Part shown: positions 614-43,000 of the stretch, piece by piece
Layout: the number at the start of each line of letters is the position of its first letter
Position numbering within the stretch: position 1 is the stretch's first letter
NCBI GenBank assembly: GCA_017538365.1
Contig: JAFYIZ010000044.1
Coordinates: 62,001-126,000 of the forward strand
Direction of reading: 5' to 3'
Source: a bacterium
Lineage (GTDB): Bacteria; UBP6; UBA1177
DNA: 64,000 nucleotides
Notes under the pieces: generated by a model
Databases searched by the model: none
Told to the model about the DNA's origin: nothing
What the model saw: the letters and a program-made list of their open reading frames with translations, nothing else
Translations under genes and position numbers: made by a program

Positions 614-2700
614 TATTTGTAGTAAACCTCAAGTCCGTTCGGGAACGGCTGTACGTTGTAGCCCGAAAGATCGGTTATAACTGAAGGCTGACCGGTGAAC
701 GACTGAATATAGCTTCCACTCTGCCCGCCAGGTCCACCAGGTCCACCGCCTCCCGGGAAACCGCCGCCACCACTGCCGCTGCCGGCAGTACCGGAAATCG
801 TAGGCTTGAAAGCGATATTTGCATTTCCGTAATAGTTGTTCGTGTCAAAACTCATGCTGTAATTTGTTCCCTGTTCAGATTTTCCTGTGCTGAATCCGAG
901 AGCAGTCTGAGTGGTGATACTTGCTGCACCGTCTGAATCAAAAGAGCCGCCCATTCCGCCGTTGATCTGGCATTCAACAACGATTACACCGCCGTTGATG
1001 GTCAGCGTGCCGTTGCTGTCTATGCCGTCTGTATCGCCAGTACCCGTTTTGACGTAGTGGAATCCGCCGCTGATTGTGAGATAGCCTGTGCTGTTGCTTC
1101 CGCCTCCATGACCGCCCCAGCCTGACGAACCTGAGCTGTCATTTCCGCCTGCCGCATTCCAGCCGTCGTCTCTGCCGTAAACCGCCGTAACACCGCCTGT
1201 TACCGTGATATACCAGCCCTGCATTCCTTCGAATGACATTGTGACATTGAGCGTTCCAGCCAGAATATCGAGTTTGTTGTCGGCATGAAGCCCCTGATCA
1301 TCCGAAGCTATTGTCGTGTCACCGCCTTTGATATAGATATTGCCGCTATGAATACCGTCATCTCTGGCATTGACCTTGATCGTTCCGCCAAGGATTTTGA
1401 CTATAGCAACATTCAGATTTAAATTTTCAGCATCTGTAACGGTGTCAGGAACACTCGCCTTGATTCCTTTGAGCGAAGGATTGTTTTTTGAGTCATATTG
1501 TTGAGTGGAAGTCGTGATAACGCTGCCGCCGCCGGAAGTAACATCTATGACACCATCTTTGATCTCGACATAGGAAATCGCGTGGATTCCGTCGCCGTTT
1601 GTAGCGTTTACAGTAACTTTGCCGCCTTTGATTTTGATGTATCCTTTGACGCCGTCGTAAGGATCTTCGGCTTCCGTAGTAAGTACCAGTTTCTCAGTAT
1701 TGTCAGATTTGATGCCGTCGCCGCCTGAGGTAACAGAAATATCTCCGCCGCGGATAACGACTGAATCCTTTCCTATGATTCCGTCATCTTTAGCTGTTAC
1801 GACAAGCGTTCCGCCGTCGATATCAAGGTCGTCTTTTGAAGAGATACCGTCCTGATAAGTAGCGTTTATCGTAAGCGTTCCCTCGCCTGCAAGAATAAGG
1901 TCGGACTTGCTGTAAAGAACCGCCGTCGGATCAGTCGTAGCAGCTCTCGTTCCGTCGGTGAGCGTGTTCTGCGTTCCGTTAGCCGTGAAAATTCTCACAT
2001 CTTTCGCCGTCATGACAGTGAAAGGAGAATTGTTCGAACTCGTAATATTTGCAGCGTTGAGAACAACGTGAACAACTTCTTTGTCGCTGTCAGCCGTTTC
2101 AACAATGATTCTGCCGTCGGAAAGCGTTCCGTCGATTTCGAAAACGCCCGAAGCAGTGATCGTTGCGTTCGTGCCGGAAACCGTTACATTGCCCTGATTT
2201 GCGCCGTCGACTGTGATAGAAGTGCCGTTCAAATGGATATAAGTTACATCAGCACCGTCTCTCGGATCGCTGTTGTCACCAGTACTGCCTGTACCGTTGT
2301 CATCTTCAGGATCAGTCGGATCTGTCGGATCGGTCGGTTCAACCGGATTTACAGGAGTTCCCTGACAAGCGGAAGTATCCCAACCCAAGCAGTTGGGTTT
2401 GCAAACCGCATATCCGCCGGTATAACCTGAATCAATTGCAACACATTCGGTCGCATTGCCGTCGCAGACTTCGCCTGGATCGGGCTCTCTGTTGCCGCAG
2501 GTTTCACTGACAACGCCGCTATCGGTGTCGCTTGTCGAACCGGAATCGGTATTGTCGCCGGTCGAACCCGAATCGGTGTCGGCACTGCTTGAACCCGAAT
2601 CAGTGTCATCGCCAGTGTTGTCGCCGTTGCCAGAGCCGCCGCAGGAAGCGATGAGCAGAGCAAAAGCAACCGCTGATAAAATCAAAAAGATTTTTTTCAT
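613..2700 (-). CDS. Cthe_2159-type carbohydrate-binding beta-helix lipoprotein (DUF4353-like)
   Basis: A 695-aa lipoprotein: the signal peptide ends in the lipobox IASC. A low-complexity linker of DTDSGS/DNTDSGS units follows, then a short cysteine module (CGNREPDPGEVCDG) of the type common in myxobacterial surface proteins. The rest is a right-handed beta-helix-like repeat rich in DGI, GGD and DDG turns (IDGGTL, IRGGDI, ISGG and similar), which matches the Cthe_2159 family of polygalacturonate-binding proteins. A Gly-rich stretch (GSGGGGFPGGGG) near the C-terminus is also seen in that family. I chose the ATG at 2700 because GGAGGAG lies 6 bases upstream; a TTG four codons earlier would put the Shine-Dalgarno inside the gene. 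Likely outer-membrane or surface glycan binding; the ligand is unknown. Confidence 0.75.
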   Translation of the reverse strand: MKKIFLILSAVAFALLIASCGGSGNGDNTGDDTDSGSSSADTDSGSTGDNTDSGSTSDTDSGVVSETCGNREPDPGEVCDGNATECVAIDSGYTGGYAVCKPNCLGWDTSACQGTPVNPVEPTDPTDPTDPEDDNGTGSTGDNSDPRDGADVTYIHLNGTSITVDGANQGNVTVSGTNATITASGVFEIDGTLSDGRIIVETADSDKEVVHVVLNAANITSSNNSPFTVMTAKDVRIFTANGTQNTLTDGTRAATTDPTAVLYSKSDLILAGEGTLTINATYQDGISSKDDLDIDGGTLVVTAKDDGIIGKDSVVIRGGDISVTSGGDGIKSDNTEKLVLTTEAEDPYDGVKGYIKIKGGKVTVNATNGDGIHAISYVEIKDGVIDVTSGGGSVITTSTQQYDSKNNPSLKGIKASVPDTVTDAENLNLNVAIVKILGGTIKVNARDDGIHSGNIYIKGGDTTIASDDQGLHADNKLDILAGTLNVTMSFEGMQGWYITVTGGVTAVYGRDDGWNAAGGNDSSGSSGWGGHGGGSNSTGYLTISGGFHYVKTGTGDTDGIDSNGTLTINGGVIVVECQINGGMGGSFDSDGAASITTQTALGFSTGKSEQGTNYSMSFDTNNYYGNANIAFKPTISGTAGSGSGGGGFPGGGGPGGPGGQSGSYIQSFTGQPSVITDLSGYNVQPFPNGLEVYYK

Positions 2701-2760
2701 AAGCTCCTCCAATTAATAATGAGCAAACGAATGATTTTAGGTTTTTTCAAAAAAAATGGA

Positions 2761-7160: not shown

Positions 7161-10100
7161 ATGAGAAGATTTTTGGTTTTTCTGGCAATGCTGGGTTTGG
7201 TTTTCATGGTGAGCTGCGGTGACGGAAACGGAAACAGCAGCGGCAAGAAGCAGGGTGAGCTTTACGGCTCCTGCTATCCCAACAAAACCTGTAACGAGGG
7301 TTTGACCTGTGACGAGGAAAACAACGTCTGTCTGCCAGACGGCAATGATTCCGACGCAGATGATGATACCGACACATCAGATGTCGAAATATCGGATGAA
7401 GATTCGGACAATCCTCAAGAACCAGACGATGACGCTAAGGATCCTACAGACCCCAACGACTCTACTGATCCTACAGACACTGACGATGAAGACAAGGAAG
7501 AACCTGACGAAAGAGACGATACAGATACTGATATTCCGGTAACTCCTGATGAAGACAATCAGCAAGAACCGGAAGATCACGACACTCCCGAAACTCCGGA
7601 TGAAGACAACGAAACTCCCGTAAATCCCGAAGCGACTGAAAACCACAAGATTTCCGGTATATTCCAAGTCGGAACAGGCGTTTCAGGAATAGAGGCAGCT
7701 CTTTACGAATGCGGCGGCACCGAAAAAATCGCAGCGGCGAACACCGATGCAAAAGGAAAGTTCTCTTTCAATGCCGATATAACGGCGGCAAAGACATACT
7801 GTGTTAAAGCCGGCGATTTCGCAAGCTGCTTCAAGGGCTTAAGCGACCACACGGCGAACATCTCTGAAATCACGACTGCGGCCTATCTTCTCGACAAGAC
7901 CTGTGCCGATATGCGTAAGAGCGAAACCAAAATAAGAACTTATGCAAAACTGGGAACCGGCGAATGGCTGGGCGAGCTTGACTATTCCAAACTGTCAGGC
8001 ATTTCTGAAGGACTCAAACTTCTCTCCAACTACCTCAAAACGACAAACAACAAAACCATTTCCGAAAAGATCGCCGAAGACGCGAAGAAAGAGACTCCGG
8101 CATTCGGAAAATTCTTCAACGGCTTCAGAATTTCGGCAAACAAAACCGAAACAGTAATCGGAGAAAGTGCAGACAACAGCACAACTTTCAGCGTTGATGG
8201 CGGCAGTACGAAAATCGCATCCGGCTTCAAAATCAAATGGACGATGAAGAATAAAACAGCAGAAGCCGCGACATACAAATTCACGACTTCGACTCCCGGC
8301 GAATACGTTGCACGTGCCCAGCTCGTTTCCGGAAGCAGCACCGTTTCCGACGGTTCGGCAAGCGTTCTCTACCTCCAGAAAAAGAAAAGCGGTGCGATTT
8401 ATCTGAACGGAAAATCGAAAAACATCTCACACTATATCGATAACGGCATCTACGTCGTTATTCCCAAGAACACCGTTGTCAAAAAGAACGGGGAACCTGT
8501 AACCAAAATAACATACGACATTCTTTCTGCCGGCGGCAATCAGGTTTCGCGTCTTAAATTCTACCCTGAAGGCGCTGTTTTCGAGGGCGATTCGATGTAC
8601 TTCGTCTACGAACTCGGCACGGTTTACGGCGGCGATCCCATCATGCTCTCGGCAAAGAGAACGAATGCTGACGGTTCAGTCGATGTTCTCAATTCGGCTG
8701 CCGGAGACCCGATTATGATGGCTGCTGCAGGTGATCCCATCATGACGACAGCGGCAGGTGACCCCATCATGCAGGCGGCAGCAGGCGATCCTATCATGAC
8801 TAATGCTGCCGGAGACCCGATCATGACAGCTGCTGCGGGTGATCCTATCATGACAAGCGCTGCGGGTGACCCGATAATGACTTCGGCTGCAGGAGATCCG
8901 ATAATGAATGCAGCTGCCGGAGACCCGATTATGACCTCGGCTGCGGGCGACCCGATCATGGCGGCTGCTGCAGGCGACCCGATAATGATGGGAACGAGCT
9001 CGAGCACAATGATTTCGCAGACGAACCACTATTCGATTTTCACAGTTGAAGCAGCAAATCTTCCGGTTTCTGTCGACGCACTTCTCGACAGATGGTGCGA
9101 CGGCTCCTTCTACCGCAACTATTCTCCGGTTGCATTCATCGAAGCAGGTTTCCAAAAGTACAAACCCGAATCTTCGCTACTTCCATATCTGACGTGTGAT
9201 GAAAACAGAAAGTTCGGTGACCTCGGCAACGACCTTTACGAGCTTATCAACAAACAGGTAGGCTATCAGCGCAACCTCAACCTGATCGAAAATATTTTCT
9301 ACATTTCCGAGTTCTACAACCGCATGAATACAAGAAAGGCAAACGGCGAAGTTGCAGCTGTTAAAAACGGTCTTGAACTCAGAAGCGCAATCGCAGCACT
9401 TTACACGGCAACGACTGCATACAACAGAAGCTCCACCCTTGCCGACCTGTTCGATTCTTCGATGATTCCTCTTACTTACAGCGGCGCAACTCCCGCCGAC
9501 TATACGGCAAAAGCGAAAAGCGCGATCACCGGAAACTCCGGTTCAGGCGATACATACACCGCAACAAAGAAAGAGATGATGATTTTCGCGAACTACATCA
9601 CGACATCATCCAAAGGCCCCAATTTCCAGAATGTCGAATCGGTTCTCACGCCTGATCAGCTCGTCTGTGCATGGTTTGACAGCAATACCGAGCCGCAGAA
9701 CTGCAACAAAATCTACACACTCAACGATGCTGGACACGTCGCACTCGGCGGCACCGAATTAAGCGCAGCGGAAGTAAACGCTATCTTCTCCGGACACTTC
9801 ATGCCGATGAACAGCAGACTGAGTGATGAAGAAAAACTCGATCTTTTCAGAACTTTCTACCTTGCACTTAAATATGCGGGAACGATTTTCTACGGCGGAA
9901 GCGACATCGACGAGCTCAACGACGCTCTGCTTAAAACGGCATACCTCGTTTTCGACGGGATCGATGACAACGCGAAAGCGGTCAGCATAACCGATACTTT
10001 CGATGCATCGGCTCACACCGTTTCCGTTCTTGAAGGTGCTGAAATGGCGACAGTTCCGTATCTTACCAAACTGAGTACGCTCACAGACAGAATCTCGCTC

Positions 10101-13100
10101 AAAGTAGCAGCTGCAAGCGCAGAGATCGAGAAAGTCCTCATCAGCATCGAAGGAAATGAATTCGAGAAAGTACAGGAAAATACGCGCACTTACTACAAAC
10201 CTGCAGGCTCACTCAAAGAAAAGTCGATAGTCCTCACTCCCGGAACGCTTGCACAGGGCGAAAAGGCTCTCAAGGATCTGCTCGGTTCTGAAAATGTCGA
10301 CGAACTCGGCAATATCACGGGCAAGATGACGATAGTCGTCAACTCGAAGATTTCAGGCAAAACCTATTCGACGCAGAAAACCTACGAATTTTTCGTAAAC
10401 GGCGAAAGTGACGGCGTAAATTCGAAGGAAGTTCCGGCAAATATCCAGATCCGCGTCAACGATTCAAACGGCAATGCGATTCCCGACAACGCAAATCCGA
10501 CGATAATCCTCAATCCGGGCAACAAGGTATATTATGCCGAAAACGGAATAGTCAGCATTGAAAACCTCACTCCTGCTGCATACACGGTTGACGCATTTGC
10601 AGACGGATACTATGCAAAGAATGTCAGCGTAAACGTTCCATCGGGAGCTGTGTTCGATGTTGAAATCAGGCTTGACGAAGAGGATACGACTTCGGCTGAT
10701 GCAAATCTCGAACTCTCGGTAAAAATCGACACCATAAAGCATCCGTCGAAAGTCTACATACAGATTTACAACGACGACATGGATCTCGTTGCGAACGAGA
10801 CTGCAAAATTCAACGGCGAAGGCAGGTACGAAACAATTAATATACCGATGGGTTCAGGAAGATACACTCTCCTTGCTGTCGGCGAAGACATGTACAACTA
10901 CCTTGAAGCGATAACGCTTTACGAAGGAAACAACTCAAAGGAAATCACGGTCATTGCAAAGAACGCATGCGGAAACGGCATCGTCGATTCTGCCGAAGAG
11001 TGCGAACCTTCACAAAGTGCACCTGTTCTCTGCGGCACGATCTATCCTGCCGCTCCGAATCCTGACAAACATGCGGTCTGCGATCCTCTGACCTGTACGT
11101 TCGACAAGACAGAGTGCGGCAAAGCGGCTCTCTGCGGTGACGGAATAATCGACAGCCCTGCCGAGCACTGCGACGGCGGTTCAAAGGCTTGTGCAGAAAT
11201 CGCAGGTTTCGGCAATTCAACCGGTTCCGCACCGTGCGCTGACGACTGCTCCAGTTACATCACCGCAAACAACTGCTCGCAAACGACAGGAAGCTGCGGC
11301 AACCTCAAGGAAAACGCAGTCTGGAACGACGGAAACGGCACATTCAGCCAAACATATAACGGCGAAGACTGGATACCTGCAACAAAAGCTGCAACTTTCG
11401 GACTTACCAAAGAAGAATGTGTCTTCTCCTGCAAAAAAGGTTACAAATGGAACGGCTCTGCCTGCATCCCGAGTCCGCTTTCACTCGCACTTATCTGCAC
11501 CGGCGAAACCGACTGCTTTAATGATACAAATAAAACTGAGGAATGCCCGGCTTACGGTGCGGTTTTCTTCGGTCAGGATGCACAGTATGCCAATACCCGA
11601 TTCTGCACGCATCACGATTTAACGGAAGCAGAAAACGGCATTTTCAAAGACGCTTACACCCACTATGAGTGGCAGGCTGCTTCAAACGAAGCAATGAACT
11701 GGAGTGATGCACAAGACTACTGCTCGCATCTCAACGATGAAGGCGGTTCCGAGGCACAGTGGAGAATACCGAGCCCGACTGAACTCATGACTATTCTTGA
11801 CAACAGCACGGCGAGCCTTGCTCTCGGAGAGATGTTTACAGGAAAAGGCCTCACCTTCTGGGCAAAGGAAGACAATAGAAACGACGACAACGCATGGATG
11901 CTCGGAGAAAACGGAGAAATCACAAGCGTTGCAAAGACAGAGACAAACAGCGTTATCTGCGTAAAATACGACTTTGATGCTATGCAGAACCGCTTCACAG
12001 CTACGGATGAGACAGTAAAAGATAATGACAGCGGCCTTATGTGGCAGAAACAGCCTGTTGCATCGGTAACGTGGGAAAAGGCTCTTTCATACTGCGAAGA
12101 AGTTTCGACAGCAGACAAGTTTGACTGGAGACTTCCGAACAGAAACGAACTTGCATCGCTCATCAACTATGAAAAGGAAAACGGCGTAGTCAGCGACTTC
12201 CCCGGAATCGCGGCAAAAGGCTTCTGGACTTCGACAAGCTCACTCACCGGAAATGAGGCGTGGACAGTCGATTTTGCAGACGGAAAAATTGAAGCAACTG
12301 AAAAGAAAGACGCCAGATACATAATCTGTGTAAGAAACGACGAGCCATGCTTCGGTGACGAATGTCCGAACGCATGCGGCTTCAATGCATGCAAAGGCAT
12401 GGCAAACTCGACAGGGCTCTGCACCGCTAATGACTACAGCTTCACCTGCGGCTGCAAATCGGGCTTCAACTGGAATCACGGCAAGTGCCTCCTTGCAACA
12501 ACGCGTTACACCGCCTGCACCGGACTTCCTGAAAACGGAGTCTGGAACAGTGTATTCGGCATCAGCCAGAGCCTCGACGGTGAGAACTGGTATCCGAGCG
12601 AAGTCGGCACTTTCAACAAAACACCGAGTTCTACGGAATGCAGATTTATCTGCGCAACGAACTACACATGGGATGCGGAAAATAACAAGTGCCAGCCTAA
12701 ATCTACAGTAACGCAGTGCTCCGAAAAGAAACCGAATTCTGAATGGAACAGCGTTTCAAGGATTTCGCAGACATGGGACGGAGAAAAATGGGTTCCCTCT
12801 GCAACATCTGTTTATAACATGACAGAGAGCGAAACTGAATGCCGTTTCAAATGCAAAGAGCACTACAACTGGAATGACGCGGACATGCTCTGCGATCCCG
12901 AGACTCAGCCTGCAACCTGCATCGGTCTTCCTGCAAACGCACACTGGTGGAACGATCCGGCAACGATCACCCAGACATGGACAAACGGCGGCTGGGCACC
13001 GACTGCAACGGGCGCTCACAACACCGACGCTGAAGAGAACAGATGCTTCTTCACCTGTGATGAAAACTACGACTGGAACGACACTTCCTGCGTTGCAGAG

Positions 13101-16100
13101 ACAAGAGAAACACCCTGTGTCACCACGACCGACAACTCCGAATGGACGGGAGGATTCTCAAGCATCAAGCAGACATGGAACGGCTCTGAGTGGTATCCGA
13201 GTGAAATCGGAACATACAACACCGAGGCAAATTCAAGTTACTGCCGCTTCAAATGCAAAGAAAACTACAACTGGAACGGCTCAACATGCGTTGCAGCGAC
13301 ACGGCTCGCAAGCTGCACAGGAAATCCGGCGAATTCCCAGTGGAACACCGTTTCCAGTATAATGCAGACATATATGGAAATCGGAGAAAATACTTATGGC
13401 TGGTCGCCGTCGAATATCGGTTCTTACGGTGCGGCAACGACCACGGAATGTCACTTCACATGCAAGGAAAACTACGAATGGATAAATAACGAGTGTGTCG
13501 GCAGAAAACAGATCGTTGAGTGCACCGGACTTCCCGCAAATGCTCAGTGGAAGGAAGAACACTCCACGGTAGAACAGCAGTGGAACGGTACTCAGGGATG
13601 GCTGCCGTCCGCAGTCGGACAGCACAACGTTGTTACGGGATGCAGTTTTGAGTGTGAGACGGAACATTATACATGGGATTCTGCAACATCGACATGTATC
13701 GGCAAAACAAGAAATAATCAGGACTGCATCAACAAACCTGATTCTGCAGTCTGGAATACAGTTTCCAAAATCAACCAGACTTGGAACGGCAAAGCTTGGC
13801 TTCCTGATTTGAATGCGACATACAACGAAAACTCTGCAATTGACGAATGCCGCTTCAAATGTCCTGTCAACTACACATGGAACGGTTCTACCTGCGAACC
13901 GAGAACCCAGATCGTAAGCTGCGGAACACTTCCTGCGAACGCTGCATGGAACACGGTTTCACAGATCAAGCAGACATGGAACGGTTCGACCGAAAAGTGG
14001 GAACCCGCCGTAAATCTCGAACACAACGACACTTCAAGCGAAACTGAATGCCGCTACACCTGCAAGACCAACTACGAACCTGCTTATGCAAACGCAAACG
14101 ATCAGCAGCCCTCATGTCAGGCTAAGAAGCAGACTGTTGCCTGCCAGGGACTTCCGGCAAATGCTCAGTGGTTCTACGAAACTATTGAACAAGAATGGAA
14201 CGGCACGACCTGGGCTCCGACAAATATCGGAATCCACAGCTCTGATGCCAACCAGAGTGAATGCCGTTTCCGCTGCATCGAGGAAAACGACCAGTATGTC
14301 TGGAACAACAACACCAAAACATGCGATGCAAGAACAAAAGAAAATCAACCCTGCACAGGCAAGGATATCCACTCTCACTGGACCAACCCGACCGGAACCA
14401 TTCCTCAGACATGGACCGGAACTGACTGGTTCCCGTCAACGACAGGCAGCTACAACGAATCGTCAGACGAAACTCAGTGCTACTTTGTATGCGACACAAA
14501 CTATCAGTGGGATTGGGTCGAAAAGAAATGCGTCGGCGCGGAAAAGACGTCACCTTGCGGAGCTTTGCCTGATCATGCTCAGTGGAACACCGCTTCAAGC
14601 ATAATCCAGCATTGGGCTGAAGGTGCTTGTGACGGTATTGACTGCTTCGTTCCAGATCTCACTCCGAAATACAGCACGGAAGCAACGACAGCTGAATGCC
14701 GCTACAAATGCGAGGAAAACTACGAACCTTCGGGTGACGGTGATTACAAATCATGCGTTCCTGCGACAAGAATCAGAAACTGTGAAGAAGGCAAACCGGC
14801 TAATACAGTTTGGAACACATCGCTTGCAGACGGTCAGATCAGGCAGACTTGGAACGGCTCTGACTGGGAACCTGATCTTACCGGAGTATTCGGCGGACAG
14901 GATGCTCCTGCCTCCAACAGCTGTATCTACAAGTGCGCCGAACACTACGATCCGGATGAAACAAATTCCTGCATGCCGCATAAGGAACAGGCTCAGTGTG
15001 ACGATGAATCGCTTCCTGAAAACGCAGTATGGGCAGGCGGTTTCAAGAATATCATGCAGACTTGGGCAGGCGGAAATTTAGGAATGCAGCCGCCTCTAAC
15101 AGGAACATTCAGCACAGAGGCCGATTCAAATTACTGCCGCTTCCAGTGTAAGGAAAACTACACTTGGACAGGTGTTGAAGGCGATCTGAAAGACGCAGGA
15201 GAGTGTATAGCCGACACAAGAGTGGTAGACTGCGACCAAAGACCGGCTCATTCGATTTGGTATCAGGTCCACTTCATAACACAAACCTGGAACGGATCAG
15301 AATGGCTTCCAAAAACTGAACCTGAATACAGTGTGATACCGAGTGATAACGAATGCAGATACTCCTGTGAAGAAGGCTACTATCCGATTAACGGTCTATG
15401 CACCAATAATCCTGCCGAGATAAAGCCAAATCTGTGCTTAGATGTTGACCATAGCACCTGGGGCGTCTATCTGGCTTATAATCAACTTTTCCCATACGAA
15501 TGCAGCTGCGAAAGCGGTTATTACTGGTGGGGCAAGACCGGCTGCCGTCAGGAAAAAGCGGCATTCGGCAATATATGCACCGATTCTGACAAGTGTCACA
15601 GCAGACAGGGAATTATAGAATGCGTTCCTGAAGGAAATACTTACTACGGTCAGGATGCTCAGTTCGCGGAAGCGGGTTTCTGCAGTCCCAAGAACTTACA
15701 CAAAGGCGGAAGCAGCGAACCGGTTGTAGAGGATAAGAATACAGGACTTCTGTGGCAGGGAAAATTAATTCATCCAGAAAGTAGCCCAACATGGAGCCAA
15801 GCTCAATCTTACTGTTCGAGCTTGAACACGGATGGATACGGTCCTGCATGGTCAAATGGAACAGGAACAAGCTGGAGGCTTCCTACGATCAAAGAATTGC
15901 AGACTATTGTCGATTATGGAAAACAACCTGCTCTCAATAGCGTTTTCCAAATAGAAGACCCCAACGTCTCGTACTATATATGGTCAAGCACTGCATATAA
16001 CGACAGCTTTTATTATGCAGTCTCCCATCAGGGACTTACAACTGGGCGCGCTGCAACTGAAAAGTACAATAATCGGACTCTTTGTGTAAAAGAGTACAAT

Positions 16101-17744
16101 CCTGAGCTTATTCTGCCTGAAAACGCAACATTTGATCCGGCAAATGAACCAGTGAATAGTGACGTCGTCAGAGATACTTCGGCAAACCTTTACTGGCAGA
16201 CCAACACGTTCTCAAGCTTAGGATGGGATCAAGCTCTCAGATACTGCGAGAATTCAACAGAAGGCGGATACACAGACTGGAGACTCCCGAACATAAACGA
16301 ACTTCTCTCGCTTATAAATTATAGTAAAACTTCTGCTCCACGTTCTGATTTTCCAGGTATAAACAGCGGCAAATACTGGACATCTACACCATATTCCCAA
16401 TCTAATGACAATGCTTTTTATGTCAACTTCGCAACCGGAGAAGTTCAGTATACAGGCAACTTATTACTGAATGCCCGCTGTGTCCGCTCCGATTTGTGCG
16501 GTGAAGGAAAATTCCTGTCAGGTAAAAACTGTGTCGAAAATCCATGTACATCAAATTCATGTTCTTCGGTTGCTTATTCAGACGGAGTATGCATACCGCT
16601 TACGGAAAGCAAATATTCATGCGGCTGTGCTGACGGATACGCTTGGGAAAGCTCGACTTCAAGCTGCATAGCTGATCAGTGCATCACCACCGACAATGAG
16701 TGCACTTCTATGGAAGGCTCCAACGGAATATGCACGCATTATGACGGAAAAATCAAATGCGGCTGCACGGAAGAATACTTCTGGAACGGTTCAAGATGCA
16801 TGAAAAAGAGTGCTCTCGGAAACGTCTGCACAGGACAGATGCTATGCTACGACGCAACGACACCCGACGATGAAATTGTACCCTGCCCTAAAGAAGGTGA
16901 AGATTTCTATGGTCAGGATTGTCAGTATGCCTCAAAAGGAACCTGCGCTCCGCAGCAACCCATAATCCAGACCTCATTAACCGGAGAAAAAGTTATAAAA
17001 TACAAAAATACCGGACTTATGTGGCAGAAGACTACGTCGGACGAAGCTTTGGATTGGTATCATGCAATAACATACTGTGCAGATCTTGAGTATGCAGGAT
17101 ATGATGATTGGAGACTGCCGACACTTAAAGAACTTGAAAGCATCACGAACCTATCTTATGACTTTATCTTTTTAGACCTTGATATTTTCGATGCTGATGG
17201 TTCTTTGATTTCCTGGACATCGAGTCAGCTGGCTTCAGATCACACTAGAGCATGGAGCATAACTTATAAGTATACGAATACTGGTATCTGGAGCGGTGAT
17301 CTAAAATCAACGGCTCTACCTACTGTCCGCTGCGTCAGAGGGGACTATCCGTCTGAAAATTCATCTTTCACTGTTTCGACTAAAAACGGACAAGATATCG
17401 TTACGGATAATGAAACAGGGCACATCTGGCAGGGCAGCTATTCCGATCCTCTAACATGGAAAGAAGCTCTTGCATACTGCGAAAATTCTGAGTATGCAGG
17501 ATACACAGACTGGAGAATGCCGAACATGAATGAACTTATCTCCATTTTCAATTTCGACAAATACTACAACACCAATGCAACAGATTTCCCGAAATCGTTA
17601 CCAGATGGTTTATGGACGTCTTCTTCATTCGCAAGTATCCAATATGGAACTGCCCAAAACAGGGCACTGTCGATAACTACCCATACCGGTTCGTCTTATA
17701 TTGTGAATAAAACTTCCCAAAAGAATGTTCTCTGCGTCCGTTAG
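7161..17744 (+). CDS. Giant modular surface lipoprotein with DUF1566 (Lcl-type) modules
   Basis: 3527 aa. A signal peptide with lipobox VSC is followed by a short cysteine patch and an Asp/Glu/Thr/Pro linker to about residue 155. Next come a carboxypeptidase-regulatory-like beta domain (about 160-245), an 11-unit AAGDPIMxx array (513-611), a long globular part, CGNG/CGDG..E.CD modules (about 1270-1380), and 15 cysteine-rich repeats (1379-2747) interrupted after the first by a pair of DUF1566 modules. Two further DUF1566 pairs and EGF-like cysteine segments complete the C-terminus, which ends in the family's usual CVR. DUF1566 modules are marked by W.(E/D)A..YC, DWR(L/M)P...EL and FWTS-type motifs. 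GGAGG precedes the ATG. Likely anchored in the outer membrane and exposed; its function is unknown. Confidence 0.85.
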   Translation: MRRFLVFLAMLGLVFMVSCGDGNGNSSGKKQGELYGSCYPNKTCNEGLTCDEENNVCLPDGNDSDADDDTDTSDVEISDEDSDNPQEPDDDAKDPTDPNDSTDPTDTDDEDKEEPDERDDTDTDIPVTPDEDNQQEPEDHDTPETPDEDNETPVNPEATENHKISGIFQVGTGVSGIEAALYECGGTEKIAAANTDAKGKFSFNADITAAKTYCVKAGDFASCFKGLSDHTANISEITTAAYLLDKTCADMRKSETKIRTYAKLGTGEWLGELDYSKLSGISEGLKLLSNYLKTTNNKTISEKIAEDAKKETPAFGKFFNGFRISANKTETVIGESADNSTTFSVDGGSTKIASGFKIKWTMKNKTAEAATYKFTTSTPGEYVARAQLVSGSSTVSDGSASVLYLQKKKSGAIYLNGKSKNISHYIDNGIYVVIPKNTVVKKNGEPVTKITYDILSAGGNQVSRLKFYPEGAVFEGDSMYFVYELGTVYGGDPIMLSAKRTNADGSVDVLNSAAGDPIMMAAAGDPIMTTAAGDPIMQAAAGDPIMTNAAGDPIMTAAAGDPIMTSAAGDPIMTSAAGDPIMNAAAGDPIMTSAAGDPIMAAAAGDPIMMGTSSSTMISQTNHYSIFTVEAANLPVSVDALLDRWCDGSFYRNYSPVAFIEAGFQKYKPESSLLPYLTCDENRKFGDLGNDLYELINKQVGYQRNLNLIENIFYISEFYNRMNTRKANGEVAAVKNGLELRSAIAALYTATTAYNRSSTLADLFDSSMIPLTYSGATPADYTAKAKSAITGNSGSGDTYTATKKEMMIFANYITTSSKGPNFQNVESVLTPDQLVCAWFDSNTEPQNCNKIYTLNDAGHVALGGTELSAAEVNAIFSGHFMPMNSRLSDEEKLDLFRTFYLALKYAGTIFYGGSDIDELNDALLKTAYLVFDGIDDNAKAVSITDTFDASAHTVSVLEGAEMATVPYLTKLSTLTDRISLKVAAASAEIEKVLISIEGNEFEKVQENTRTYYKPAGSLKEKSIVLTPGTLAQGEKALKDLLGSENVDELGNITGKMTIVVNSKISGKTYSTQKTYEFFVNGESDGVNSKEVPANIQIRVNDSNGNAIPDNANPTIILNPGNKVYYAENGIVSIENLTPAAYTVDAFADGYYAKNVSVNVPSGAVFDVEIRLDEEDTTSADANLELSVKIDTIKHPSKVYIQIYNDDMDLVANETAKFNGEGRYETINIPMGSGRYTLLAVGEDMYNYLEAITLYEGNNSKEITVIAKNACGNGIVDSAEECEPSQSAPVLCGTIYPAAPNPDKHAVCDPLTCTFDKTECGKAALCGDGIIDSPAEHCDGGSKACAEIAGFGNSTGSAPCADDCSSYITANNCSQTTGSCGNLKENAVWNDGNGTFSQTYNGEDWIPATKAATFGLTKEECVFSCKKGYKWNGSACIPSPLSLALICTGETDCFNDTNKTEECPAYGAVFFGQDAQYANTRFCTHHDLTEAENGIFKDAYTHYEWQAASNEAMNWSDAQDYCSHLNDEGGSEAQWRIPSPTELMTILDNSTASLALGEMFTGKGLTFWAKEDNRNDDNAWMLGENGEITSVAKTETNSVICVKYDFDAMQNRFTATDETVKDNDSGLMWQKQPVASVTWEKALSYCEEVSTADKFDWRLPNRNELASLINYEKENGVVSDFPGIAAKGFWTSTSSLTGNEAWTVDFADGKIEATEKKDARYIICVRNDEPCFGDECPNACGFNACKGMANSTGLCTANDYSFTCGCKSGFNWNHGKCLLATTRYTACTGLPENGVWNSVFGISQSLDGENWYPSEVGTFNKTPSSTECRFICATNYTWDAENNKCQPKSTVTQCSEKKPNSEWNSVSRISQTWDGEKWVPSATSVYNMTESETECRFKCKEHYNWNDADMLCDPETQPATCIGLPANAHWWNDPATITQTWTNGGWAPTATGAHNTDAEENRCFFTCDENYDWNDTSCVAETRETPCVTTTDNSEWTGGFSSIKQTWNGSEWYPSEIGTYNTEANSSYCRFKCKENYNWNGSTCVAATRLASCTGNPANSQWNTVSSIMQTYMEIGENTYGWSPSNIGSYGAATTTECHFTCKENYEWINNECVGRKQIVECTGLPANAQWKEEHSTVEQQWNGTQGWLPSAVGQHNVVTGCSFECETEHYTWDSATSTCIGKTRNNQDCINKPDSAVWNTVSKINQTWNGKAWLPDLNATYNENSAIDECRFKCPVNYTWNGSTCEPRTQIVSCGTLPANAAWNTVSQIKQTWNGSTEKWEPAVNLEHNDTSSETECRYTCKTNYEPAYANANDQQPSCQAKKQTVACQGLPANAQWFYETIEQEWNGTTWAPTNIGIHSSDANQSECRFRCIEENDQYVWNNNTKTCDARTKENQPCTGKDIHSHWTNPTGTIPQTWTGTDWFPSTTGSYNESSDETQCYFVCDTNYQWDWVEKKCVGAEKTSPCGALPDHAQWNTASSIIQHWAEGACDGIDCFVPDLTPKYSTEATTAECRYKCEENYEPSGDGDYKSCVPATRIRNCEEGKPANTVWNTSLADGQIRQTWNGSDWEPDLTGVFGGQDAPASNSCIYKCAEHYDPDETNSCMPHKEQAQCDDESLPENAVWAGGFKNIMQTWAGGNLGMQPPLTGTFSTEADSNYCRFQCKENYTWTGVEGDLKDAGECIADTRVVDCDQRPAHSIWYQVHFITQTWNGSEWLPKTEPEYSVIPSDNECRYSCEEGYYPINGLCTNNPAEIKPNLCLDVDHSTWGVYLAYNQLFPYECSCESGYYWWGKTGCRQEKAAFGNICTDSDKCHSRQGIIECVPEGNTYYGQDAQFAEAGFCSPKNLHKGGSSEPVVEDKNTGLLWQGKLIHPESSPTWSQAQSYCSSLNTDGYGPAWSNGTGTSWRLPTIKELQTIVDYGKQPALNSVFQIEDPNVSYYIWSSTAYNDSFYYAVSHQGLTTGRAATEKYNNRTLCVKEYNPELILPENATFDPANEPVNSDVVRDTSANLYWQTNTFSSLGWDQALRYCENSTEGGYTDWRLPNINELLSLINYSKTSAPRSDFPGINSGKYWTSTPYSQSNDNAFYVNFATGEVQYTGNLLLNARCVRSDLCGEGKFLSGKNCVENPCTSNSCSSVAYSDGVCIPLTESKYSCGCADGYAWESSTSSCIADQCITTDNECTSMEGSNGICTHYDGKIKCGCTEEYFWNGSRCMKKSALGNVCTGQMLCYDATTPDDEIVPCPKEGEDFYGQDCQYASKGTCAPQQPIIQTSLTGEKVIKYKNTGLMWQKTTSDEALDWYHAITYCADLEYAGYDDWRLPTLKELESITNLSYDFIFLDLDIFDADGSLISWTSSQLASDHTRAWSITYKYTNTGIWSGDLKSTALPTVRCVRGDYPSENSSFTVSTKNGQDIVTDNETGHIWQGSYSDPLTWKEALAYCENSEYAGYTDWRMPNMNELISIFNFDKYYNTNATDFPKSLPDGLWTSSSFASIQYGTAQNRALSITTHTGSSYIVNKTSQKNVLCVR
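8697..8993 (+). repeat. AAGDPIMxx array, 11 units of 27 bp
   Basis: Eleven consecutive 9-residue units AAGDPIM plus two variable residues (MA, TT, QA, TN, TA, TS, TS, NA, TS, AA, MG), with a twelfth isolated GDPIM at about residue 490. The protein motif is invariant while the codons differ from unit to unit (for example GAC CCG ATT, GAT CCC ATC, GAT CCT ATC). That argues for selection on the peptide rather than recent slippage. Confidence 0.9.
11295..15401 (+). repeat. Cysteine-rich 60-75-residue repeats, 15 copies
   Basis: Each copy follows C...(L)PANA.W....(S)I.QTWNGS.W.P...G.(Y/F)N.....ECRF.C...Y.WN....C, with four conserved cysteines and several tryptophans. Copy 1 lies at 11295-11472. 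Copies 2-15 run without a break from 12513 to 15401, after a pair of DUF1566 modules. Copies are diverged at both DNA and protein level. I do not recognise a named family for the unit. Confidence 0.85.
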
Positions 17745-18119
17745 CATCGTTTTGAGGTAGACGCGCCGCGGTCCGCGTGCAGACCTTCCGGTTTTTACAG
17801 AAATCACTGAAAAATTTTTTCTTTGACCGCGATCCTGACCTCAACACTAACCCTTCAGTCGCTTCGCGCCAGCTTCCCTTGACCCCTCACTCGATGAAAA
17901 AGTGGCTGTTGCAAAATTTGCAACAACCACTCAGTATGGTGCAACAAAAAGGGGAAAACCATCAACGAAAAATAAATATTCATAATCATAATTTTTAACA
18001 TCAATCATTGAAATATTTCTTTACTTGCAAAATTTGTCAAATATAATCTAAAGCAAAAGTTTGCTCTTTAAAACTATATGCTTGTATTTGTCATAAAATT
18101 TAAGAGACTGGAGGTTAAA
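17745..18119. other. Non-coding gap with duplicated segments and a hairpin
   Basis: No gene is seen. The gap holds the first copies of two direct repeats (17731-17753 matching 19904-19926 exactly; 17797-17834 matching 18581-18618 at 34 of 38 positions). It also holds a 31-base near-perfect inverted repeat at 17901-17931 (arms AGTGGCTGTTGCAAA / TTTGCAACAACCACT, one mismatch) that lacks a T-run. The composition is mosaic and unlike the flanking genes. Confidence 0.6.
17901..17931. repeat. 31-base imperfect palindrome
   Basis: Fifteen-base arms with a single C/A mismatch and almost no loop. There is no poly-T on either side, so it is a poor terminator. It could be a cruciform, a mobile-element end or a protein-binding site. 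Confidence 0.6.
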
Positions 18120-18569
18120 GTGACAGAAAACAAAACCGGCGAAATCATTATTTATCAGGCTGATGACGGACAGACAAAAATCGATGTGCGGTTTGAGGAA
18201 GAAACAGTGTGGCTGACGCAGGCCCAGCTTGTCGAGCTGTATCAATCAAGCAAAGCAAACATAAGCGAGCACATCAAGCACATTTTTGAAGAAGGCGAAC
18301 TTGACGAAAGTTCAACTGTTCGGAATTTCCGAACAGTTCAAAAGGAAGGAAACCGACAAGTCGCAAGAGAACAGATTTTCTACAATCTCGACATGATAAT
18401 TTCCCTCGGTTACCGCGTTAAATCAATCGTTGCGACAATCAGCCACAAGCAGGCTGTTGACAAAGCATTGGAAGAATACCGCAAATACCAGGTGAAAACC
18501 TTGAGTCCTGTGGAAAAGGCATACCTCGAAACAATAAAATCAATCGAAAAAAAGGCAAAGAACAAATAA
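18120..18569 (+). pseudogene. RhuM-family protein with large internal deletion
   Basis: The N-terminal 95 or so residues match the RhuM (virulence protein) family: WLTQAQLVELYQSSKANISEHI, then the NFRTVQKEGNRQVAR and YNLDMIISLGYRV segments. Right after YRVKS the sequence jumps to a C-terminal-type segment (ISHKQAVDKALEEYRKYQ). Full-length relatives are about 320-350 aa, so roughly 190 residues between them are gone; the frame is kept and the product is 149 aa. The GTG at 18120 has GGAGG upstream. The gene is flanked by 34/38 direct repeats (17797-17834 and 18581-18618). RhuM genes are frequent in islands near restriction or DUF1016 genes; a DUF1016 gene follows here. Probably non-functional or reduced to the HTH-like part. 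Confidence 0.7.
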
Positions 18570-18580
18570 TCTTTTATTTC

Positions 18581-18618
18581 CAGGAATCACGGAAAAATTT
18601 TTTCTTTGATCGCGATCT
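18581..18618. repeat. Second copy of the 38-bp direct repeat flanking rhuM
   Basis: Matches 17797-17834 at 34 of 38 positions, including an uninterrupted core from GAAAAATTTTTT into CTTTGA. The two copies bracket the rhuM remnant. Confidence 0.75.
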
Positions 18619-18714
18619 TTTTGACCATCTGACAAGCGGTAAATTCTCGGAGATAATTGGTTTTATCCGTTTTCTGAGATGTTTCAGGGAATGGATTTAT
18701 GAGGATAGAAGTTT

Positions 18715-19767
18715 CTATGAATTTTTCTCAATATCCAAACCTTTTTCAATTTCTTCATTTGTCGGCAGAGCAGACTTTACGTCGGATATATTTATGTCAT
18801 ACACTGCAACTCCAAGCGGTTTCTGCAACCCTTCAAAAGACCATTCTACTTTTGTGTCATCCTTTGATTTGCAGATCAAGAGTCCTATTGTAGGATTGTC
18901 GTCACTGCGCTTCAAAAGTTTATCAACAGCCGTGACATAAAAATTGAGTTTTCCAACAAATTCAGGTTTAAAAGGCACGACTTTCAACTCCACCACAACA
19001 TAACATTTTAAATGTATGTGGTAAAAAAGCATATCTATGTGATATGAAGTTCCGGAAACAACTAACTCAACCTGCCTTCCGACAAAAGCAAAACCTTTTC
19101 CCAATTCAAGAAGCAGTTTTGTAATTTCATGCGTGAGGGATTCTTCCAAAGTCTCCTCATCATATCCTGGATTCATAGTCAGAAAATCGAATTTATACGG
19201 ATCTTTCAGCATTTCATTAGCCAGGTTTCCACGTATCTCACCCAGCGTATTCTTAAAATTAGTAAGAGCTTTGCCGCTGGTTTCATATAATTTTATTGTC
19301 AAAACATCTTGAAGTGCCGAGCGGCTTAAATTGTTTTCAATGGTTTTCCGTATGTAGAAAAATGCCTCGTCAACATCACCGCACTTCGTTATGATTTCTA
19401 TATGATGCCGCCACGGAACACAGAAAAATTCTCCACCAAGCTGGTGGAGTTTTTCCAAATCCCGTGAGTAAAATAAAAACCACTTTTTGATATACCAGAG
19501 ATTTGTTGTTGAAAACCCTTTCTGCCCTGGAAAAGCTGACTTGAAATCTGAACTTAACCGTTCAATCACACCGCTTCCCCAGCGTTCCTCGGCTTTCTTT
19601 TCGGCAATATCCCGTCCAAGAGACCAATAAAACTCCAACATTTCAGTGTTTACTTTTACAACAGCCTTTATCTGAGTTGATTTGTAGCGATTCCTTAAGG
19701 TTTCAAACCATGCCGAATATTCAGGGTCATTAATTTTTACAGGATTAACAATAATTTTATTATTCAT
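18715..19767 (-). CDS. DUF1016 (YhcG-type) PD-(D/E)XK nuclease
   Basis: 350 aa. The N-terminal DUF1016_N part contains the typical LGRDIAEK, W.S.VIERLS.D and FPG..GFS..NLWYIK elements. The C-terminal part is a PD-(D/E)XK domain: an early Glu helix (EESLTHEITKLLLELG), then YHIDMLFYH and CYVVVELK, giving D...E.K. Proteins of this family sit in defence islands and have been linked to mobile DNA; the substrate is not established. ATG 19767 is preceded by GAGG; the longer frame to 19833 has no ribosome site. It converges on the rhuM remnant, and both lie between the 23-bp direct repeats at 17731 and 19904. Confidence 0.85.
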   Translation of the reverse strand: MNNKIIVNPVKINDPEYSAWFETLRNRYKSTQIKAVVKVNTEMLEFYWSLGRDIAEKKAEERWGSGVIERLSSDFKSAFPGQKGFSTTNLWYIKKWFLFYSRDLEKLHQLGGEFFCVPWRHHIEIITKCGDVDEAFFYIRKTIENNLSRSALQDVLTIKLYETSGKALTNFKNTLGEIRGNLANEMLKDPYKFDFLTMNPGYDEETLEESLTHEITKLLLELGKGFAFVGRQVELVVSGTSYHIDMLFYHIHLKCYVVVELKVVPFKPEFVGKLNFYVTAVDKLLKRSDDNPTIGLLICKSKDDTKVEWSFEGLQKPLGVAVYDINISDVKSALPTNEEIEKGLDIEKNS

Positions 19768-19903
19768 TTTCGCCCTCAAACATAAAAGGAATTTAACGAT
19801 AAATATAAGAAAACAAAAACGATAAAAAATCAAGTTTTATTTTATATTTTTTACAGATATTCAAAAATGTACTATCGAACAAATTAAATCTCAATAAATA
19901 TTT

Positions 19904-39873: not shown

Positions 39874-39996
39874 ATGAAACGAATCCGTTCCTGGATCAAC
39901 GGCATAATTTTTTTGAAAAAAATTTCATTCCCGACTCAGAAAAACCGGCATTTTGTGCAACTAAATACAAGTAAATCGTGTTTTTTAACTTTATAG
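39874..39996 (+). CDS. Possible 40-aa basic protein
   Basis: An ATG with an excellent Shine-Dalgarno (GAGGTGAG) opens a 40-codon frame starting MKRIRSWINGII and ending just before the alpha-2-macroglobulin gene. The product is basic with one hydrophobic stretch. Below the usual ORF-calling length and without recognisable homology; a leader peptide or decaying gene is equally possible. Confidence 0.35.
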   Translation: MKRIRSWINGIIFLKKISFPTQKNRHFVQLNTSKSCFLTL

Positions 39997-40007
39997 TGGA
40001 GAGAGTA

Positions 40008-43000
40008 ATGAAAAAATCGGCGATTTTATTGTTTCTCACCGCCCTGCTTGCAGTTTTTACATGCTCATGCAGCAAAAAATCGGGCTCGGGTTCAGATTTC
40101 GGAAAAGAATTCCCGAATCCTTTTGAAGACGAAGGAGACCGGATCGTAAAAGTCGGAACTCTGGAGGTCAACGAAAGTCATATTTTCATCTTCTACAAAT
40201 CGGGGAAATTTTTTCTGAACATTCCCGTCAAACTTGACAACGGTACCCCTTCGATATCTGCGGAATGCTCGGTCAGCGAGGAACTTCTCGACGGAACGCC
40301 GAAAGATGACACTGAAAGGAATCAGAAAGAGACTATCGACGACAAAACCGAAACGCTGGCGATAGATCTGGGCGCAGATTACCTGCCCGACATTGAAGAA
40401 CTGACAGATCTCATTTTGAAATACTCGATAAAATGGGGAAAACACAATCTCAGCGGCAAAGTTTCGATGTTCAGAATCTCTCCGAAAACGAGGACTTTCA
40501 TCATCGGAAACAAAGAAGTGACTGTCGGTAAAACCTCGACTATCAGAATTTTCGTAAGCGATGTCCTTTCGGGAGAACCGATAGAGGGCGGTTCCCCTCT
40601 CATGGACAAAGACATAACTGTCGAATTTTTCAGCGGAGAAGAGCTTGTCGGCAAAGCATCTGCAAAAACCGACAAAGGCGGCATGGCGGAAATCCCGGTT
40701 TCTCTCGAAGACTCCGTCACGGGGAACATCACGATGGTCGCAACAGCTGAAACCGTCTACGGGAAACGCACTCTTTCGGTGAACTTATTCTCCACATCAC
40801 CGGAAAATTACAACAAAACGCTGCTTACGACAGACAAACCTATCTATCAGCCCGGACAGACGATACACATCCGCTCGCTTTCTCTCGGACTTCCCGACAA
40901 AAAACCGCTGGATGACAGCGACATAACGTTTGAACTCATCGACCCGAAAGGCAATAAAGTATTCAAAAAAACAGGCAAAACAAGCAAATACGGCATATTT
41001 TTGGCCGATTTCAAGCTTGCAAACCTTGTAAATCTCGGGAATTATCAGCTTTCAGCATTGATAGACGGCGTAATTGCAGCGCAGAAAACGCTTACAGTTG
41101 AAAAGTACGTCCTTCCGAAGTTCGGAATCGAATTTTCCGCCGACAAAGGGTTTTATCTGCCGAACGAAACCATGAAAGGCGAGATCGTTTCGAACTATTT
41201 TTACGGAAAACCGGTAAGCAAGGGTGCAGTCCACATCGAAGCGAAGAGTTCTGATGTTTCGGAAACGACTTTCCAGACGATCGATGCGACACTTTCGCAG
41301 AACGGGAAATACTCATTTTCGATAAAACTGCCGAATTACTTTACAGGCAGCGAACTTGAACAGGGAAAGGCGAAAGTAAAACTTGAAATCACCGTCACCG
41401 ACACGGCGGATCATGCGCAGTCCGTCGTCAAATACCTGACTATAGCAAAGGCTCCCGTCATTGCTACACTCGTTCCGGCAGCAGGGAAAGTTCTTTCAGG
41501 GACCGAGCAGGAGATGTATCTCATCCTCACTGATCCTCAGGGAAATCCCGTTTCCGGCAAAGCATCGATAAAAGCCGGCGGCAAATCTGTTGAACAGAAT
41601 GTCGGAGAGAACGGTTTCGCCGAGTTTAAAATGGTTCTTCCAGAAAACGGCAATGTTACCGTCGAAATCAAATACGACGGAAAAACATACCAAAGCACAA
41701 AATATTTCCAAAACGACGGAAACGCCGAATTTATATTCCTTTCGACAGATTCGCCGATCTACGATGCCGGAGAAGATGTCGAAGTGAGCGTTTTTACAGG
41801 TTTTGACCCGAATGCGGAACAGCCTTCGATGCTTCCTGACAGGGCTTATTTGGACGTTGTCGTCGAAGATCAGATAAGGCTTACCAAAGTGGTAGAACTG
41901 AAAGAAGGAAAGGGAAAAATCTCGCTTCCGCTTGATGAAACAATGCACGGAGTCGTCGAATTTCTTGCATACTATCTCACGAAAGAAGGAAACATCATCC
42001 GCTCGTCGAAAGCGGTTTACGTAAGACACGCAAGCTCGCTTTCAGTCGAATTTTCGACCGACAAAGAGGAATACAAGCCGAGAGAGACCGCAAAAGCGCG
42101 TTTCACTGTTAAAGATGCCGAAGGAAAACCGGCACCGGCTGCGCTCGGAGTTGCAATGGTTGATGAAGCCGTTTTCCATGTCATGGATTTCGTTCCGGGA
42201 ATGGAAGCGACATATTTCAACATCGAAAGTGCAGTGATGGAATCGAATTTTGTGATTTACGGAACGAGTTATCAGGACATCGTTTCTCCTGCCGAAGATG
42301 AAGAAACCGAGGAAGAAACTGAAAAGAGGGCGAGCGCATTTTTCGCGGACAATGCAGGGAATATTCAGCACGACATAGCACAGGAAGACTATTCACAGTA
42401 TGAATCAAAGCACAATTCCGCAGCAAAAAGCGCCGTTTCCGGAAGAATATCAAAAATCCTTTCCGAGGTTGACTGGGGTGAATGCGAAAAAGAAAAAGTC
42501 CTCAAAAAACTGAATAAAATAATCGCACAATCTGAAAACGCCGACCCGTGGGGCAACATGTTCTCCGCATCAGTTGAAGGAAGCTGGACCCTTTACGGAA
42601 AGTTCGTTTCGGCAGGTCCGGATGAAACACCTGATACAGAAGACGATATCGAGACAAGCAGGAATTTGTGCTATACTGACGATTACGCAGAATATGATTC
42701 AGGCGACACCGGTGCTGAACCGGGTTATCCTGAAGAAGATCCTGTATATGACGGAGGTGACACCGATACTCCGGGAGATACCGACAGCAAAAAAATAAAA
42801 GTAAGAGAATGGTTCCCCGAGACTCTCTACTACAATCCGCAGCTTATCACTGACGATTCGGGAAAAGCCGAAATCGAAATACAGATGGCGGATTCCATAA
42901 CGTCATGGCGCGTCACTGCTCTTGCCAACACTCTTGACGGCGCAATCGGAAGCTCGCTTGACAGCATAAAAGTTTTCCAGGACTTCTTCGTCGATATCGA

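Follow-up and report, generated by a model that had tools for sequence, protein, structure and literature searches.

Introduction

Sushi/CCP arrays of the complement factor H type consist of four-cysteine modules of about 60 residues set in tandem, each 3 to 4 nm long and closed by disulfides between cysteines 1 and 3 and cysteines 2 and 4; EGF-like domains carry six cysteines. Lcl of Legionella, which binds glycosaminoglycans, is trimeric and carries a DUF1566 head on its collagen-like stalk; its authors propose that DUF1566 acts in carbohydrate recognition and/or in trimer formation and call the general role of the domain unclear (PMC11162425). Here, we describe a four-cysteine, tryptophan-rich repeat unit in a giant lipoprotein (P0001) of the bacterial phylum UBP6 (UBA1177), encoded in a window of 64,000 nucleotides (assembly GCA_017538365.1, contig JAFYIZ010000044.1, positions 62,001 to 126,000, forward strand). 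The unit is an uncatalogued family in the libraries searched and recurs as a module of secreted proteins, most of them anchored, in UBP6 and some Gracilibacteria.

Results

Pattern scanning and alignment of P0001 (3,527 amino acids) gave exactly 15 units, every one with the four conserved cysteines, at residues 1379 to 1435 (one alone) and 1786 to 2747 (14 contiguous; the first of these was parted by eye from the preceding stretch, to which the pattern had joined it). Residues 1379 to 2747 correspond to positions 11295 to 15401 of the window, where a first-pass annotation had placed a fifteen-copy four-cysteine repeat. That repeat was borne out by profile tests (five random splits, 7 units to build and 8 held out), in which held-out units scored 45 to 76 bits and 200 shuffles of the protein reached 7.2 bits at most. 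The unit is a domain of about 57 residues followed by a linker of about 8 residues, arranged head-to-tail, and its span from first to fourth cysteine is 57 to 70 residues in P0001. Units make up 29% of P0001 rather than the claimed share of over a third, and, against the claimed alternation with DUF1566 pairs, they form one block of 14 units plus one outlier and do not alternate regularly in this protein. The order is a unit, a DUF1566 pair, an EGF-like stretch, the 14 units, a cysteine-rich stretch, a DUF1566 pair, two EGF-like stretches, and a last DUF1566 pair, the six Lcl_C/DUF1566 domains being detected with an E value of 2.2e-124 (Pfam scan). Single units alternate with single DUF1566 domains in some paralogues (L080 and L083). 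Three relatives from congeners also have 15 units; in comparison with them, the best match of a window unit had the same rank in 12, 12, and 13 of 15 cases, which argues that the array is ancient and, within the genus, mostly conserved and not rapidly expanding. Two further arrays comprised 12 units and 14 units, the latter with an additional unit in the frame before it.

P0001 matched four Pfam families at an E value of ≤10, none above cut-off on the units and Sushi/CCP (PF00084) not among them, and three NCBIfam models, whose best stretches all lay in DUF1566 domains. Among the scores shown, none put an individual unit at the cut-off of a Pfam or NCBIfam family. For 124 diverse units (best E value per family, best 25 of 38 families), no listed value suggested an above-cut-off match, and EGF profiles gave at best an E value of 0.017, in one member. 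No PDB sequence matched the unit profile at an E value of ≤0.001 (best, 0.37), and searches of viral contigs, plasmids, and phages with it gave nothing significant. The view that the unit belongs to no recognized family thus stood at the level tested; the first-pass annotation had named a sushi or EGF profile match as evidence to the contrary, and none was found when these were run. The one reservation is a weak similarity to DUF5874 (PF19202), which was not adopted as a parent family; the alignments were partial, and no single unit was seen to reach its 27.1-bit cut-off. Open PMC literature contained no match to peptide words of the unit or to DUF5874, and no title or abstract start on DUF1566/Lcl_C, UBP6, Gracilibacteria surface proteins, or cysteine-rich repeats described the unit; a Gracilibacterium repeat described in PMC6851277 is of PTD type and different.

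AlphaFold2 gave high-confidence predictions for a single unit, with a mean predicted local distance difference test score (pLDDT) of 92.4 (124 aligned units as input) and a three-unit tandem with a pLDDT of 94.8, a predicted template modeling score (pTM) of 0.71, and strands in both linkers (87 aligned triples as input, some overlapping). Foldseek returned no PDB match at an E value of ≤0.001 for either model; the best row for the tandem was coagulation factor XIII (E value, 0.067), and the best row for the single unit had an E value of 6.0. The single unit also had no significant match in BFVD. With a second structural aligner, weak rows were mostly CCP modules (Z, 2.2 to 3.1), the best being factor H modules 19-20 (Z, 3.1; root mean square deviation, 3.5; 78 aligned), and the notes of that program treat such Z values as no more than a common arrangement. 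An absent structural match does not prove a new fold.

The four cysteine columns of the unit (1, 42, 46, and 57) were invariant in the 124-row alignment, as were all 12 cysteines over the 87 aligned triples. By profile alignment, all four were present in 457 of 467 units; eight of the ten exceptions had a gap in the first column, and in two an end was missing. A reading of disulfide pairing from cysteine co-loss found no clear loss among these 467. Array-internal units (n = 281) had four cysteines in 272 cases, six in 6, and five in 3 (one of the three has a boundary that includes the cysteine of the next unit), and such even counts fit two disulfides per unit with an occasional third. The unit is therefore probably stabilized by two disulfides, as judged from sequence. 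The earlier term "disulfide-rich" is likely to be right, given the near-invariant cysteines and mostly even departures; against it, neither DsbB nor VKOR was detected in nine UBP6-side genomes. DsbA-like domains were present in all 18 genomes examined. A separate locus of the window's genome (L179, 5180 to 7162, minus strand) encodes three fused DsbA-like domains behind a lipobox-like start, with CPFS in the first and CPFC in the other two (by eye); no DsbB or VKOR was found in that genome.

A profile search for the unit elsewhere, which had been proposed as a check, showed that it recurs across its own genome and in other genomes and is not unique to this gene. The own genome had 47 matches in 13 frames (counted from listed lengths), and matches were found in each of the 15 genomes of its genus and in the 4 others of the family, with up to 96 per genome. 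A broader profile matched 26 of 28 phylum genomes (three with one weak match each) and none of the 358 other-phylum genomes in the same draw. Many record titles of near loci name ruminant gut samples, and a rumen study placed three genomes in phylum UBP6, genus UBA1177 (PMC7820578). The Lcl_C/DUF1566 model itself had 110 matches in the 2.3-Mb own genome, most above the curated cut-off, a striking expansion. From the 47 unit and 110 DUF1566 matches, a unit profile is likely to provide an annotation for a few hundred surface proteins of UBP6 and Gracilibacteria that are blank at present.

Outside UBP6, 18 loci from a public genome collection had an informative title (four mislabelled Spirochaetales loci left out). 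Thirteen were titled Gracilibacteria, Absconditabacteria, or Patescibacteria, with identity of up to 66% over two units, and the others Fermentimonas, Myxococcota, Myxococcales, Bacteroidetes, and Competibacteraceae. The profile matched seven times in the Fermentimonas-titled genome, once in the Myxococcota-titled genome (L154; E value, 9.5e-19), and ten times in the Myxococcales-titled genome (L165; best E value, 2.3e-13), so its occurrence is not limited strictly to two groups, and L154 and L165 possibly represent its further spread. The loci titled Bacteroidetes and Competibacteraceae (L170 and L171) held no unit by profile and were dropped. The Fermentimonas-filed locus (L097), which carries units, shares its sample series with an Absconditabacteria genome (L096) and is probably misbinned. 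In the class of one Gracilibacteria-titled genome (G387), 27 of 192 genomes matched (8 of them positives known beforehand), and a draw across its phylum gave 2 of 379, namely, that genome itself and one partial match.

In many Gracilibacteria-side frames, TGA codons interrupted translation by the standard code but not by table 25, and the UBP6-side matches listed (26-genome set) had no internal stop codon. In a Gracilibacteria-titled locus (L148, 4377 to 5567), residues in conserved tryptophan columns were encoded by CGA in 16 of 23 cases and by TGG in 7. Reassignment of CGA to tryptophan is reported for Absconditabacteria (PMC8629427), and the CGA codons of L148 are an independent sign of that code. 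TGA and CGA as sense codons within units argue that the Gracilibacteria-side copies are native and that the tryptophan positions really are tryptophan. Gracilibacteria-side units (L097 included) had their best match in UBP6-side units in 29 of 33 cases; since UBP6 sampling was about 10-fold denser and the query used to retrieve the loci came from the UBP6 side, no direction of transfer was drawn.

Anchors and heads differed between the two sides. In each of the 13 unit-bearing frames of the own genome, a unit was followed downstream by a lectin-like domain (Lcl_C in 11 and Laminin_G_3 in two; the domain scan covered 3,633 residues of one 5,094-residue frame). The N terminus of P0001 fits a lipobox signal peptide (pattern match and eye), and among 91 frames outside the Gracilibacteria side whose start could be read, 77 matched as well, under a lenient pattern and with overlapping loci partly deduplicated; several of the 14 non-matching frames have a lipobox by eye. 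A stricter pattern, which misses signal peptides with charges right after the methionine, matched 19 of 77 non-Gracilibacteria frames. Gracilibacteria-side starts (n = 14 frames) were of prepilin type in seven, a doubtful lipobox in one, and neither in six. A lectin-like or adhesion-type domain followed the units in five of nine Gracilibacteria-side proteins scanned: MAM twice (once just below cut-off), Fibrinogen_C, Laminin_G, and Fib_succ_major. In the Absconditabacterium Vampirococcus, host attachment is thought to be served by type IV pili and by surface proteins of very large size (PMC8080830).

Feature coordinates and neighboring genes

Coordinates of P0001 are collected in Table 1. Upstream of the units, P0001 contains GDPIM 12 times (8631 to 8987), the last eleven at an exact nine-residue spacing, and it had a weak PGDYG match in the Pfam scan. 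A 699-residue protein near the lipoprotein gene (616 to 2712, minus strand) has a Cthe_2159 carbohydrate-binding domain. The lipoprotein gene is followed (18078 to 19833) by a short match to the RhuM family and by a gene for a YhcG nuclease, both of which look mobile or defense-type, and a bacterial alpha-2-macroglobulin homologue of 1,639 residues (39978 to 44897, plus strand) matched MG2, bait region, A2M, and TED models.

Table 1. Features of the P0001 gene in window coordinates; Lcl_C/DUF1566 positions are from profile matches, and EGF-like stretches were placed by eye.
Feature	Position	Strand	Basis or remark
Giant lipoprotein gene (P0001, 3,527 aa)	7161..17744	+	Open frame; lipobox-type N terminus MRRFLVFLAMLGLVFMVSC by eye
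Lipoprotein signal peptide, last residue Cys19	7161..7217	+	Pattern and eye
Unit 1, isolated	11295..11483	+	
Lcl_C/DUF1566 domain 1	11640..11966	+	Profile match, genome place G000:C47:73640-73966 minus 62000
Lcl_C/DUF1566 domain 2	12009..12335	+	Profile match
EGF-like cysteine-rich stretch	12348..12488	+	By eye, without Pfam match
Unit 2, opens 14-unit array	12516..12716	+	
Unit 3	12717..12917	+	
Unit 4	12918..13115	+	
Unit 5 (single-unit model)	13116..13313	+	
Unit 6 (three-unit model, units 4-6)	13314..13520	+	
Unit 7	13521..13721	+	
Unit 8	13725..13919	+	
Unit 9	13920..14141	+	
Unit 10	14142..14348	+	
Unit 11	14352..14555	+	
Unit 12, six cysteines (extra pair within insert)	14556..14780	+	
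Unit 13	14781..14996	+	
Unit 14	14997..15230	+	
Unit 15, closes array	15231..15425	+	
Cysteine-rich stretch 3' of array	15435..15545	+	By eye
Lcl_C/DUF1566 domain 3	15723..16061	+	Profile match
Lcl_C/DUF1566 domain 4	16164..16487	+	Profile match
EGF-like cysteine-rich stretches (n = 2)	16545..16799	+	By eye
Lcl_C/DUF1566 domain 5	16995..17339	+	Profile match
Lcl_C/DUF1566 domain 6, C terminus of P0001	17397..17741	+	Profile match

Discussion

We lean toward the view that the unit is a stalk module which presents adhesive heads, as in a multi-domain adhesin. The unit stays constant while anchor and head change, which is stalk-like behavior, and a lipid anchor on the UBP6 side with a type IV pilin-like start on the Gracilibacteria side looks like a swappable stalk. 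In P0001, the lipid anchor would fix the protein in the outer membrane, and the 14-unit block might lead away from that membrane as a stiff rod of some 40 to 55 nm (an estimate only, by analogy with CCP modules). DUF1566/Lcl_C heads held out by the rod may then bind glycans or surface proteins, with feed particles, host mucus, or other cells as putative targets. The earlier label of an adhesive module survives in part, as the unit does sit in adhesin-like proteins; stronger candidates for binding are the adjoining lectin-like domains, for which the unit itself appears more like a stalk.

Several observations weigh against this stalk. Five of the 13 own-genome frames hold one unit, a very short stalk, and a single unit between heads could be no more than a linker. 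Six of the 14 Gracilibacteria-side frames fit neither anchor pattern, and four of the nine Gracilibacteria-side proteins had no lectin-like domain (one with Flg_new only, one with DUF4215 and TSP1, one with FecR and a pilin start, and one with nothing clear). VKOR was found in none of nine UBP6-side and six of nine Gracilibacteria-side genomes (6 of 18 in all), and DsbB was above cut-off in none of the 18, with one weak match (E value, 7.6e-4) on the Gracilibacteria side, a difficulty for the oxidation of these cysteines by UBP6 in an anaerobic gut. Finally, a pTM of 0.71 is no proof that the angle between units is fixed, and the rod shape and the disulfide pairing are putative.

It is unlikely, though not far-fetched, that the unit itself is adhesive, with near-invariant exposed tryptophans and tyrosines that bind carbohydrate or protein and 14 copies that give avidity. 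Four tryptophan columns and one tyrosine column are indeed conserved at 85 to 96% in 233 units, and the CGA codons at 16 of 23 tryptophan-column residues of L148 mean that aromatics were kept across a code change; conserved tryptophans in a 57-residue domain may, however, be plain core, and a lectin-like domain was at hand in 13 of 13 own-genome frames. A bolder version, in which a new small tryptophan- and cysteine-rich fold is itself a ligand-binding adhesive and moved between ruminant UBP6 and cell-attached Gracilibacteria/Absconditabacteria as a shared sticking kit, would be a long shot.

It is also improbable, in our view, that the unit represents a diverged form of some known family of small cysteine-rich domains (sushi/CCP, EGF, TNFR-type, or DUF5874). 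DUF5874 matched 28 of 124 units weakly (E value of ≤1; best, 3.1e-5), and its cut-off was passed by protein-level sums in 2 of 28 phylum genomes; in one protein (L098), the summed units scored 40.7 bits against 27.1. No single stretch was seen to pass there, however, and the unrelated MBG_3 model exceeded its own cut-off in the same scan, likewise without a single passing stretch, so the summed score means little; on the Gracilibacteria side, DUF5874 matched at all in 2 of 117 genomes and above cut-off in none. The weak structural rows do point mostly to CCP modules (best Z, 3.1), with the tandem's factor XIII row at an E value of 0.067, but Foldseek had no PDB match at its threshold, and cysteine columns at 1, 42, 46, and 57 are unlike the CCP and EGF spacings. 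An artefact of assembly or binning as the source of all non-UBP6 copies, with the unit private to UBP6, is scarcely credible: the L097 contig does look misbinned, but 27 of 192 class genomes match, TGA lies inside many units, and L148 has CGA at tryptophan positions, codon evidence by which this explanation appears largely refuted already.

The stalk-plus-lectin model offers a testable account of attachment by Gracilibacteria, which are tiny cells, and by UBP6, a barely studied candidate phylum that is not known to have a cultured member.

Comparison with known systems

The DUF1566-bearing end of P0001 matched the Leptospira adhesin Lsa25 (NF047850), with 92 bits against a cut-off of 260 and the best stretch in a DUF1566 domain, not the units. 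Pfam DUF5874, of unknown function, aligned weakly through positions 28 to 70 of its 74 to the later part of window units, with no single unit seen to reach 27.1 bits, and may be a distant relative. EGF-like domains resemble the unit in their end, which is similar to its C-terminal CxxxC...Y.W...C, and P0001 contains EGF-like stretches by eye; the unit differs in having four cysteines in 272 of 281 array units and no significant EGF model match. Sushi/CCP arrays share with the unit the tandem four-cysteine modules and the marginal structural rows, but have another cysteine spacing, no profile match in P0001 at an E value of ≤10, and no significant Foldseek match. In Legionella Lcl, the stalk is a triple helix of collagen-like type, each chain bears a single head, and a cysteine-rich unit is absent, whereas P0001 is a lipoprotein with six heads in pairs; like P0001, Lcl is a surface protein in which a repetitive stalk adjoins DUF1566 (PMC11162425).

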